Assembly: GCA_947498325.1 (NCBI GenBank)
Contig: CANMKE010000003.1
Coordinates: 186,001 to 250,000, forward strand
From: an uncultured Persicobacter sp.
GTDB taxonomy: Bacteria; Bacteroidota; Bacteroidia; Cytophagales; Cyclobacteriaceae
Length of the DNA stretch: 64,000 nt
Reading direction: 5' to 3'
The translations under genes were made by a program, and so were the position numbers. The notes under the pieces were generated by a model. It saw only the letters and a program-made list of their open reading frames with translations. It did no database searches and had not been told where the DNA came from. Shown here piece after piece: positions 4,499-9,389 of this stretch (within the stretch, counting starts at the first letter, position 1; each line of letters opens with the position of its first letter).

Positions 4499-5395
4499 CT
4501 ATACATTAACATGGCGCTCAGCATGATAAGACGACCGAACCAATGGCCCAGACTCCACATACTTGATGCCTCGTCGCTCACCCTCCTGCTTGTAATATTC
4601 AAACATCTCAGGGGTAATAAACTCGATCACCTCATGGTGGCGGTGGGTCGGTTGCAGGTACTGCCCAAGGGTCAGGATATCACAACCATTTGCCGCTAAA
4701 TCATCAATCGCTTTCAATACCTGCTCAGGCTTTTCTCCCAAACCAAGCATAATACCCGTTTTGGTGCGCATCCCCAATTCTTTCGTCCTGCGGATTTGCT
4801 CAAGACTTCGGGCATATTTGGCTTGAGGTCGCACCTGGCGATATAACTCCTCTACCGTTTCCATATTGTGAGAAACCACTTCCTGTCCACCTTCAACCAT
4901 ACGTTCCAAAGCAGACCAAGTGCCTTTCACATCAGGAATCAGGGTTTCAATCGTTGTTAACGGGCTCATCTCTTTGGTCAGCTTTACCGTCTGATACCAA
5001 ATCTCTGCACCACGATCCTTCAGTTCATCACGGTTCACCGAAGTAATCACAGCGTGCTTCACTTTCATTTTAGTGATCGCCTCCGCTACACGGCGAGGTT
5101 CTGCATCATCATACTCAGGTGGTCGCCCCGTAGATACGGCACAAAAAGTACACGAACGGGTACACACATTTCCTAAAATCATGAAAGTGGCGGTTCCTGC
5201 ACCCCAGCACTCTCCCATATTGGGACAATTACCACTTTGGCAGATGGTATGTAATTTATGCTTATCAACAATATCCCTAACATTCTTATAATCCTTTCCA
5301 ACAGGCAACTTGACCCTTAACCATGACGGTTTTTTTGTCCGGCCATCTGCTGTTGTTTCGTTAGGAACACTGGTTATTACTGGTAAATCAATCAT
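4499..5395 (-). CDS. lipA: Lipoyl synthase
   Basis: Radical SAM enzyme that inserts two sulfur atoms into protein-bound octanoyl groups to make lipoyl cofactors for pyruvate and 2-oxoglutarate dehydrogenases. Both iron-sulfur clusters are visible: the auxiliary cluster CX4CX5C at C52, C57, C63 and the radical SAM CX3CX2C at C78, C82, C85. The C-terminal RSSYHAE contains the Arg-Ser-Ser-Tyr motif whose serine ligates the auxiliary cluster. The 298-residue length is normal. lipB is not next to it. It has its own terminator and a -7-like box upstream. Confidence 0.97.
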
Positions 5396-5561: not shown

Positions 5562-5592
5562 AAAAAAGCATCCTTTATAGAAAAGATGCTTT
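5562..5592 (-). terminator. Intrinsic terminator of the 5618-6349 gene
   Basis: The minus strand shows AAAGCATC...GATGCTTT with a short loop and a T run (GCTTTTTTA), 26 bases after the stop codon of the gene ending at 5618. Confidence 0.75.
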
Positions 5593-5617: not shown

Positions 5618-6349
5618 TTACCGTTGGCTTCCGTAGTAAAAGGTGATGTAGACATTCGGGTAGAATGCACTGTTCTCTGCATTAGGCATGATGATCACCT
5701 TTTGAGCGAATACATCTATCAATGCGCCAACCTCAATCCCCGCAATATTTTTTTTGCTGCCGCCAAACTCGAAGGTCATTGCGGCCTTAAGGTTCCCCCC
5801 AAATGCAAAGGATGATTCTGGAACTCCCTGAAAGATACCCCCTGGGCCAAGAATTGAACCCCTCTGATGGGCAGGGTTGTTGGGATCGTATTGTTGCCGA
5901 TTTCCCGAAGCATCATCACCTGCCACCTCAATATAATAGGGCGTTACCAAACCAATCGAAGGACCAATGGAGGTCAGGAAATTTATCTGAACCCCTTGCT
6001 GAGCTGCTTTCCTGAATAGGCGACGCTCCAGCCCATATTGAAATCTGAAATTGTACAGGTAGTTTGATTTCCCAAAAATATAAGAGCTACCTGTAAGGGT
6101 TGATTCCCTGCGTTCCTTAGCGTGTTTGATATTCACTATTTCAAGCCCATAGGACTGATAGGTTTTCTCATTCTTCATTTTGCTGTACCGAAACATGAAC
6201 CCACCGATCAGGCCAGAATTTGAGGCTTTATTTACCCCCCATACAAATTGAGAAAGATAGAGGTCGTCATCAAGTTCTTGGGCATTGGAAAGGGTAGGAG
6301 CTGCCCAGGCAACCAAAAAAAATAATACGATGTGTAGTTTAAGCCTCAT
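5618..6349 (-). CDS. Hypothetical secreted protein, probably outer-membrane beta-barrel
   Basis: 243 residues starting with a signal peptide (about 1-23, ending SNA-Q). The mature part alternates polar and hydrophobic residues with many Tyr, Phe and Gly (for example the YNFRFQYGLERR segment) and ends VYITFYYGSQR. An aromatic C-terminus and amphipathic strands fit a small outer-membrane barrel. I chose the ATG at 6349 because it directly precedes the signal peptide; the longer frame to 6421 adds 24 residues with no signal character. No enzyme motif is seen. It lies downstream of ytxJ on the same strand with a 97-base gap, so co-transcription is uncertain. Confidence 0.75.
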   Translation of the reverse strand: MRLKLHIVLFFLVAWAAPTLSNAQELDDDLYLSQFVWGVNKASNSGLIGGFMFRYSKMKNEKTYQSYGLEIVNIKHAKERRESTLTGSSYIFGKSNYLYNFRFQYGLERRLFRKAAQQGVQINFLTSIGPSIGLVTPYYIEVAGDDASGNRQQYDPNNPAHQRGSILGPGGIFQGVPESSFAFGGNLKAAMTFEFGGSKKNIAGIEVGALIDVFAQKVIIMPNAENSAFYPNVYITFYYGSQR

Positions 6350-6446
6350 GAGGTGATGGTTTTTGTTGGGGATATTACTTCTGGCAGGTGCGAATGTTTG
6401 TAGGTTTTGGTGAGTAACCATTATTGATGATCACTCACCTGAAAAT

Positions 6447-6782
6447 TTATGCTTGTAGTGCTTTGGGAAGGTGTGCGAAATTTATTTCATGATGCGAGGC
6501 ATCAAAAACCGCCTTGCCGTCTTTCAGTAAAATAACCTGTGGGGACTGATGCAAGACGCCGAATTTCACGGCAATTTCGTTACTCACGTCTCGGTGAACG
6601 ATCAAATCCAAAAAGTAAGGTTTGATTCCTGCCTCTTCCTTAAAGCCATTTTCAAAAAAACGTAATGACATTGCGCTCGTCGGGCAACGGGTAGAATGTT
6701 TAAACAAAACTACTGGCTGTTCGAAAGATTCCTGCGCAATTTGATCCAGCTGATCAACACTATCTAATGTATTCCAATTCAT
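6447..6782 (-). CDS. ytxJ: Bacillithiol-system redox protein YtxJ
   Basis: 111-residue thioredoxin-fold protein of the YtxJ (DUF2847) family, proposed to act as a monothiol bacilliredoxin that removes bacillithiol from oxidised proteins. The sequence VVLFKHSTRCPTSAMS carries the single active-site cysteine C33 in a CPTS context where thioredoxins have CGPC; there is no second cysteine in the motif. The later SPQVILLKDGKAVFDASHH is the cis-Pro strand and C-terminal region expected for the family. It starts 21 bases after the stop of the large repeat protein gene, which suggests one transcript. It implies that the host makes bacillithiol. Confidence 0.88.
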   Translation of the reverse strand: MNWNTLDSVDQLDQIAQESFEQPVVLFKHSTRCPTSAMSLRFFENGFKEEAGIKPYFLDLIVHRDVSNEIAVKFGVLHQSPQVILLKDGKAVFDASHHEINFAHLPKALQA

Positions 6783-6803: not shown

Positions 6804-9389
6804 CTAATTGTTAATATTTCCAAAAGGACGTTCCGTCTCCCAAATCTCGGCTTCACGGGAGTTGTAACCTGGCTTTTTCTTTTTTACTCTAACGGCTTTC
6901 ATTTCATTATCGTTACTCCAGAGGTCCTTCCACCAGTAGCCCAGTCGGCTTACTTCCGCATGCGGCTCCCCACTGTACCTCAACATCCGTGAGGCCATGA
7001 GTTGTCGGCGGCTCTGCACCTGTCCATAGTACTTTCTGGCAGGAAGGTTCCCTGCATACAAATGCGCCTCTTTAGATTTTTGCTGATAGTATTTTTGCTT
7101 CGTTTTCGTTTGGTCAGGCACATACAAGCCCTGCTTGAGCCCCTCTGCTGATTTATCCTGAAAGTAACTTACTTTATTACGATATACCATATTCCCCTCA
7201 TACTGATGCGCTAACTTCGACATCGCTTCATAACGTGCCATCTTCTGCTTATGAGTATCGACAATAAACATTCCTTGACCCTGAGCTTCTGCTGACTTAT
7301 CCTGGTATTTAGCGACTTTATTTTGCTGAATTCGATCGCCCTCATACTGATGTGCCAACTTCGACATCGCCTCATAACGCGCCATCTTCTGGCGGTGCGT
7401 ATCGACGATAAACATCCCCTGACCCTGAGCTTCCGCAGACTTATCCTGATACTTCGTTACCTTATTTCGCTGTATGCGATCGCCCTCATACTGATGCGCC
7501 AACTTCGACATCGCCTCATAACGCGCCATCTTCTGGCGGTGCGTATCGACGATAAACATCCCCTGACCCTGAGCTTCCGCAGACTTATCCTGATACTTCG
7601 TTACTTTATTCTGCTGAACAAAAGTCCCGGTAAAACGCTGCCGGTGTTCCGACTGAAACTCATAACGCTTCATTTTCTCCCGCTGAGTATCCACCACCGT
7701 CATACCCTGTTTCAATCCTTCTCCAGACTTGTACTTATATTGTTCAAACTGGCTGTTCTTTGTCCGCACTTTCGTCATGCCCTGCGACTGAATTTCTGCC
7801 GATTTGGCCATCATCCGAGCTTTACGCTGGTCGCGGCTCTCGCCCCCTTTCATAATTTTCTGCTGATGATAAGACCGCGTAATAAAGGCAGTTTCCAAAG
7901 CCCTCGAATCCATCGGCTTTCCGAGGGTCAGTCCCTGCTTCTGCAGTCGGTCTGAGCTTTTTTCCATCTTGGAGTTTTTCTGACGGAAAGATTCCTGTCG
8001 CTGAGTTCCGCTGAATTTATTATGCTTCCTCGCCGATAACTGCCTTCCCAAATAAATATCCGCAGCCGAACCTTTCCAACCACCCTGACGCTGAGCCTCC
8101 GATGATTTTTGGGCCATCATCTGATATTTATTGGCGCGCTTCTTCCGAAGATCACCCGTATAGTTTGACGACTGTGTTGCTACAAATTTCCGTGCTGAAC
8201 GATCAGCCATAGTACCCTGCGATCTCGACATCCCCTGGCTCAGTGCCTCGGAAGATTTATATTTCCGCTGCTCATAACTGTTCGTCGTTTGGCGGCGACG
8301 CAAATCCCCACTATATCTTGACTGCCCCGTCGAATTCGAAGTTAGGCGGCGATCATTCTGTCGCTTTGTTTTTGACATCCCCTGGCTCAGTGCCTCGGAG
8401 GACTTATATTTTCGCTGTTCATAACTGTTGGCCGTCTGGCGGCGACGCAAATCCCCACTATAAGAAGAGTGGCCAGTATATCGACGTTGTTCAAGCTGCT
8501 TCGAGGATTTCGCCATGCCCTGAAACTGCGCCTCGCCAGCTTTGTCTGCCCGCTTCCGCTTTTCCGCATTTGGGCTGACGCGATCCATTTTCCCAGGATT
8601 AAACTTATCGCGGTTCGGGTAGGTCTTGAAACGTTCGGCTGTCAGTTTATACTCCCCACGGTTATTCATCTGCTTTTTCGAGGCATACTTATACACCGCC
8701 CGTTTGTTCTTTACCTGACGACGTTGTCCTGGCGCCCCATAGCTTCCCGACTGCTTCCTTGAAAGGTATTTCTTAGAAATGTCTGCCGAAGACCTAAATT
8801 GCCCCTGCTTTTTTAATTCCCGCGAACGGTGTTTTCCGGTAACTCCTCCGCCAGCATCATAGGCCACATTATGCCCCTTACCGCCACGGTATTTATCAAA
8901 GTTCGATGGGCGTTCCTTAAAGCGTTCCGCAACCAAAGGCTTTTCAGTGGTCATATTTCCCCCACGCTGTGGTACCTGTCGGTTAAATCGCTCGGGAGTA
9001 GCCTGCGTCATTCCGCCGCCACCTTTACGCGCCTTGCGGGAAGATTTTTTATAAACCGCCTTCCGGTTCTTTCGCTTGCGATTCCCTTTAAACTTCTTCA
9101 TCTCACGGGACATGTACTTGGACTCGAGCTGCTGGGAGCGCTTCATCTTTTTCAGTCCCTGTTGAGCATTTCTGGAGGATTTTTCCCGTTCTTTAGCCTG
9201 CCGGCGAAGATAATTAGATCCCTGACTGGACTTTTGTTTTCCAGACTGGTACATGATGGCATCGGAAGAAGAAGGGATTTTATTTTGAGCCACAGCAGTT
9301 CCCAACGGCAAAAAAGCCGTTAGTATCGCCACAAAGAATAGTGGGATGATGCGGTCAAATGTTTTATGTAGATTTTTTATAAAATTCAT
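6804..9389 (-). CDS. Large secreted basic repeat protein, unknown function
   Basis: 861 residues, no family recognised. A signal peptide (1-34, ending AVA-Q) is followed by an extremely Lys/Arg/Gln/Ser/Tyr-rich protein with almost no long hydrophobic stretch, so it is very basic. A motif K-S-[AGS]-E-x3-Q-G-[ML] recurs about ten times through the chain, each time followed by a variable linker with Arg/Lys/Tyr. Near the C-terminus the unit grows to 48 residues repeated five times; three copies are almost identical in DNA. An internal pair around SYEQRKYKSSEALSQGM is also duplicated. The last 60 residues are Trp-rich (GYWWKDLW) and differ from the rest. I chose the ATG at 9389 because it precedes the signal peptide. 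ytxJ follows 21 bases downstream. It could be a cell-surface or matrix protein; no function is proven. Confidence 0.8.
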   Translation of the reverse strand: MNFIKNLHKTFDRIIPLFFVAILTAFLPLGTAVAQNKIPSSSDAIMYQSGKQKSSQGSNYLRRQAKEREKSSRNAQQGLKKMKRSQQLESKYMSREMKKFKGNRKRKNRKAVYKKSSRKARKGGGGMTQATPERFNRQVPQRGGNMTTEKPLVAERFKERPSNFDKYRGGKGHNVAYDAGGGVTGKHRSRELKKQGQFRSSADISKKYLSRKQSGSYGAPGQRRQVKNKRAVYKYASKKQMNNRGEYKLTAERFKTYPNRDKFNPGKMDRVSPNAEKRKRADKAGEAQFQGMAKSSKQLEQRRYTGHSSYSGDLRRRQTANSYEQRKYKSSEALSQGMSKTKRQNDRRLTSNSTGQSRYSGDLRRRQTTNSYEQRKYKSSEALSQGMSRSQGTMADRSARKFVATQSSNYTGDLRKKRANKYQMMAQKSSEAQRQGGWKGSAADIYLGRQLSARKHNKFSGTQRQESFRQKNSKMEKSSDRLQKQGLTLGKPMDSRALETAFITRSYHQQKIMKGGESRDQRKARMMAKSAEIQSQGMTKVRTKNSQFEQYKYKSGEGLKQGMTVVDTQREKMKRYEFQSEHRQRFTGTFVQQNKVTKYQDKSAEAQGQGMFIVDTHRQKMARYEAMSKLAHQYEGDRIQRNKVTKYQDKSAEAQGQGMFIVDTHRQKMARYEAMSKLAHQYEGDRIQQNKVAKYQDKSAEAQGQGMFIVDTHKQKMARYEAMSKLAHQYEGNMVYRNKVSYFQDKSAEGLKQGLYVPDQTKTKQKYYQQKSKEAHLYAGNLPARKYYGQVQSRRQLMASRMLRYSGEPHAEVSRLGYWWKDLWSNDNEMKAVRVKKKKPGYNSREAEIWETERPFGNINN
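7176..7607 (-). repeat. Three in-frame 144-bp tandem repeats
   Basis: Three consecutive units of 144 bases (7464-7607, 7320-7463, 7176-7319), each encoding 48 residues that start KV[TA]KYQDKSAEAQGQGM. The first two are nearly identical in DNA; the third has a few silent and replacement changes. Diverged copies of the same unit flank them on both sides. Confidence 0.9.

Follow-up and report, generated by a model that had tools for sequence, protein, structure and literature searches.

A Cytophagales family of basic, putatively exported repeat proteins recognised by a C-terminal signature

The window analysed here, a 64,000-nucleotide stretch of DNA from an uncultured Persicobacter sp., carries a long reading frame (6804..9389) for a strongly basic, repetitive protein. 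A first-pass annotation, made from the letters alone, had called it an orphan: a signal peptide followed by more than 800 residues of Lys/Arg/Gln/Ser/Tyr-rich sequence, a Trp-rich C-terminal end and a recurring K-S-x-E-x3-Q-G-M core. Such a locus raises the question of whether the gene is real, how far its family extends, and what a protein of this kind might do in the cell. All features of the window given below with coordinates lie on the reverse (-) strand.

Results

The gene opens with an ATG at 9389 and encodes 861 residues (ORF list and translation). Compared with its counterpart in another genome of the same species, it differs at 26 nucleotides (dN 0.0015, dS 0.043), and this low within-species dN/dS of 0.034 means that the gene is genuine and under constraint. 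At the genus level, one further genome (G001) carries an open frame of 824 codons with 51% identity over aligned residues and different repeats; the N-terminal region (residues 35–275, 8565..9287) is conserved in a same-genus relative at 56% identity. By eye, the first 34 residues (9288..9389) form a typical Sec signal, with a basic start and a hydrophobic stretch leading to AVA|QN, and a hydrophobic N-terminus is found in relatives too. The computed composition is extreme, with 22% K+R against 9% D+E, a net charge of +113 over 861 residues, a pI of 10.4 without the signal, and not a single cysteine in the full chain, while four of the five Trp residues fall within the last ~45 positions. The early description of a signal peptide, a long basic chain and a Trp-rich end was therefore accurate, and its phrase "highly basic, exported" extends to nearly all relatives with an intact N-terminus.

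Searches of the repeat protein against Pfam, NCBIfam and PDB gave no match above chance or over curated cut-offs, and the C-terminal regions of 32 relatives shared no known family, in agreement with the initial impression that no described family fits. Two NCBIfam hits, to 30S S8 and PA0111, had sub-threshold scores inflated by the repeats and were discarded. A literature search for the family likewise found nothing, and by these database and literature searches the family is undescribed to date.

The repeats themselves proved more complex than first described. The exact motif of the first-pass annotation, KS[AGS]E...QG[ML], is present in 8 copies, or in 10 if slightly relaxed, against none (exact) and a mean of 0.02 (relaxed) in 2000 shuffles, so that the early count of about ten copies holds. 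The self-identity of the protein is highest at an offset of 48 residues, followed by offsets of 96 and 144. At 7195..7618 lies a tandem array in which Tandem Repeats Finder reports a 144-nt (48-residue) unit in 2.9 copies with 90% matches; self-comparison also detects degenerate repeats with a period of about 49 across residues 276–560 (7710..8564). Each 48-residue repeat comprises two related half-units (unit MSKLAHQYEGDRI; the variant given in the first-pass annotation is KSAEAQGQGMFIV). The KSxE...QGM core is seen in the window's genus and a few near relatives, and the second half-unit, S..Y-x-G-[DN], is the part common to distant relatives. The proposed 48-residue period is thus correct, but the motif placed at its core covers only half of the repeat, and the conserved unit is shorter. 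Family-wide, this short unit reads S...[YF]-x-G-[DN]-[IL]-[KR] among K/R-rich flanks; it occurs 363 times in 55 proteins, compared with 62 times in shuffled sequences, most often at a spacing of 26 or 20 residues.

What defines the family is the C-terminal block of about 100 residues (6807..7106; profiles A3 and A6), which ends in the signature K-P-x-[YF]-[DN]-x2-E-x2-[IL]-W. In the window this is KPGYNSREAEIW (residues 839–850, 6840..6875), and its Glu and Trp (E846 and W850) are invariant in an alignment of 36 diverse members. The window genome matches the C-terminal profile with E=6.5e-19, a value obtained with the window sequence included in the profile. With this signature, members can be recognised that ordinary sequence searches miss: a full-length search matched few genomes (4 of 59, counting that of the window). 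With C-terminal profiles, matches were found in 65 of the 118 genomes of the window's taxonomic family (A2, E<=0.1; the weakest include a few doubtful frames with stops), and in 68 (A3, E<=0.01) or 88 (A6, E<=0.05) of 241 Cytophagales genomes, spread over 14 of the 22 sampled families of the order. These counts are probably lower bounds, since a K/R-rich profile of 100 residues has little power in divergent genomes; chance matches to it may also occur, and only some of the weakest matches were inspected. Across ~190 genomes of other orders of the class, no believable match to the C-terminal profile was obtained, the weak ones corresponding to three SufB proteins, one small monooxygenase-like protein and one probable non-coding frame. 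On these searches, which cover a sample of the order and class, the family is confined to Cytophagales and fast-evolving. Far from being an orphan, the gene therefore belongs to an order-wide family, usually in the same gene context. Two metagenome-assembled contigs titled Rickettsiales and Gemmatimonadetes (L133 and L143) bear the signature and are probably misnamed or misbinned, since all searched members fall in one order.

The gene is nearly always present in one copy per genome, usually at the same genomic position, and its signature DNA pattern was located in Marivirga sp., Xanthocytophaga flavus, Splendidivirga corallicola, Xanthovirga aplysinae and others. Cytophagales homologues share the C-terminal signature, and those examined in full also share the basic composition, signal peptide and gene order, whereas repeat number, repeat sequence and length vary widely relative to the window protein. 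Among 34 relatives from the window's taxonomic family, K+R ranges from 19 to 27% and D+E from 4 to 15% with a hydrophobic N-terminus, exceptions being truncated or doubtful, and lengths run from 273 to 1030 residues (start sites assigned by a simple script; one relative truncated at a contig end left out). Several lineages have lost the gene, which is therefore dispensable there.

Downstream, the repeat gene is followed after 21 bases by ytxJ, as originally noted, here identified as a monothiol bacilliredoxin gene (6447..6782; TIGR04019, E=2.7e-36). Next come a gene for an 8-stranded outer-membrane barrel (5618..6349, the start set by homologues, the ORF opening at 6421) and lipA, encoding lipoyl synthase (4499..5395; sequence read by eye), also a conserved neighbour. 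A terminator-like hairpin 3' of the barrel gene (5565..5592), from a consensus scan in which such sites were not above chance overall, suggests that the repeat gene, ytxJ and the barrel gene form one unit. The common order is E1 dehydrogenase (named from reading its sequence), an optional small lipoprotein, repeat gene, ytxJ, barrel and lipA. In the window's taxonomic family the usual arrangement is a divergent M16 peptidase, E1 dehydrogenase, repeat gene, ytxJ, barrel and lipA; the window itself has the M16 gene directly upstream, and the E1 and small lipoprotein genes are absent from that place. This gene order recurs in other families of the order (20 loci read). The small lipoprotein-like protein found just upstream in many families has ~80–130 residues, a CPAY-type motif and a Lys-rich end (for example L116 7775-8047, L117 11010-11333, L123 7818-8135, L124 9802-10152 and L125 8284-8673, among others), and a Pfam search with it gave no match.

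Because ytxJ is the gene immediately after the repeat gene in 27 of the 34 family members and also in many other families, a functional tie to YtxJ in thiol redox control might be imagined. We consider it extremely unlikely, as the repeat protein has no cysteine to offer and is exported, while the YtxJ ORF begins without a signal peptide; moreover, ytxJ occurs in 190 of 241 Cytophagales genomes, many of them without the repeat gene, and dependence on YtxJ was rejected on this count. The barrel is a more plausible associate. Its predicted structure (AlphaFold pLDDT 91.8, 8 strands) is closest to OmpX/NspA/OmpA/Ail by Foldseek, and its sequence has no convincing match in Pfam or NCBIfam. A pairing in which the C-terminal peptide of the repeat protein would bind the periplasmic face of this barrel is consistent with the closeness of the two genes in many genomes of several families, and with family f13, where a short basic exported protein precedes ytxJ and the barrel gene. 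We nevertheless judge such a pairing quite unlikely: the barrel was found in 207 of 241 genomes, the repeat protein in 88, and the barrel persists where the adjoining repeat gene is missing, which led us to discard an obligate partnership.

Two variants of the locus deserve mention. The short basic protein of f13 lacks the C-terminal signature and is encoded where the repeat gene would be expected, flanked by the lipoprotein gene and ytxJ (L160 5692-6054, L161 8897-9265, L162 8821-9273); it may be a remnant, an ancestor or unrelated. Loci L148–L154, which come from a subset of the window's family, retain the barrel gene and lipA but no longer contain E1, ytxJ or the repeat gene; the ytxJ of these genomes is located elsewhere.

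AlphaFold modelling of the C-terminal 260 residues, using 32 sequences, yielded helices and no defined fold (pLDDT 61, pTM 0.20), although this low confidence may stem from a poor alignment instead of disorder; a charge-hydropathy analysis places the protein on the disordered side. Pfam and NCBIfam models of type IX secretion system (T9SS) C-terminal sorting domains did not match the repeat protein, nor can it have a lipobox cysteine, there being no cysteine at all. With neither a residue for a lipid anchor nor a detected T9SS tail, the periplasm is the likeliest location: the protein probably resides there, and surface exposure appears less likely. This weighs against reading the protein as a released or surface-exposed cationic adhesive or matrix component able to bind DNA, polysaccharide or surfaces. 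In favour of that reading are the signal peptide, a repetitive sequence rich in Lys, Arg, Ser and Tyr, and the surface-dwelling habit common among members of Cytophagales. Given that neither a T9SS tail, nor a cysteine for a surface lipoprotein, nor any known adhesin domain was found, we regard this reading as unlikely. Similarly, Cytophagales is an order of gliding bacteria and the product is exported and probably envelope-located, so that an accessory part in gliding motility or the T9SS comes to mind. Yet GldM is found in 224 of 241 genomes against 88 for the repeat gene, GldD in all 35 genomes chosen with and without it, and no linkage to gld genes was seen at the loci examined, making an accessory part very improbable; a core role was rejected, as GldM and GldD are near-universal regardless of the repeat gene and its presence does not track gld genes.

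Discussion

Taken at the level of sequence, these features lead us to favour, tentatively, a role as a polycationic, largely disordered periplasmic tether or spacer that would bind anionic envelope polymers while its C-terminal peptide is docked on a partner. Sec would export the product, which would then stay in the periplasm: it lacks a cysteine for lipid anchoring, no T9SS domain was found, and a barrel of 8 strands is too narrow a channel for its secretion. The chain would be mostly disordered or extended, its Lys/Arg-rich units making many weak contacts with peptidoglycan or with the inward-facing part of the LPS layer; this would account for the drift in sequence and copy number alongside persistent charge and unit spacing. 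The conserved K-P-x-Y-[DN]-x2-E-x2-I-W peptide would in turn dock on a fixed protein partner. Drifting but similarly charged units combined with a fixed C-terminus fit multivalent electrostatic binding together with one specific docking site, and the nearby outer-membrane barrel gene gives the locus an envelope setting. Overall, the protein may thus serve the cell envelope as a flexible, polycationic tether or spacer.

Extended to the family, this proposal becomes more speculative: it is possible, if doubtful, that these proteins represent a class of disordered, polycationic periplasmic scaffolds, specific to the order, that organise the Cytophagales envelope, their charged repeats evolving freely while the C-terminal docking peptide stays fixed. 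An undescribed family whose members reach about 1000 residues and are unusual in composition, kept across much of the order, points to envelope biology particular to Cytophagales.

Several known systems offer partial parallels. Periplasmic chaperones of the Skp/OmpH type are likewise exported, basic and helix-rich, whereas the repeat protein is far larger, repetitive, and without a Pfam match or predicted fold. Like Bacteroidota T9SS substrates, it is exported and comes from genomes having a T9SS, but unlike them it matched no T9SS C-terminal domain model. Finally, Lys/Tyr-rich adhesive repeat proteins and silaffin-like peptides also consist of basic repeats rich in Ser, Tyr and Lys, a likeness to the repeat protein that is one of composition only.
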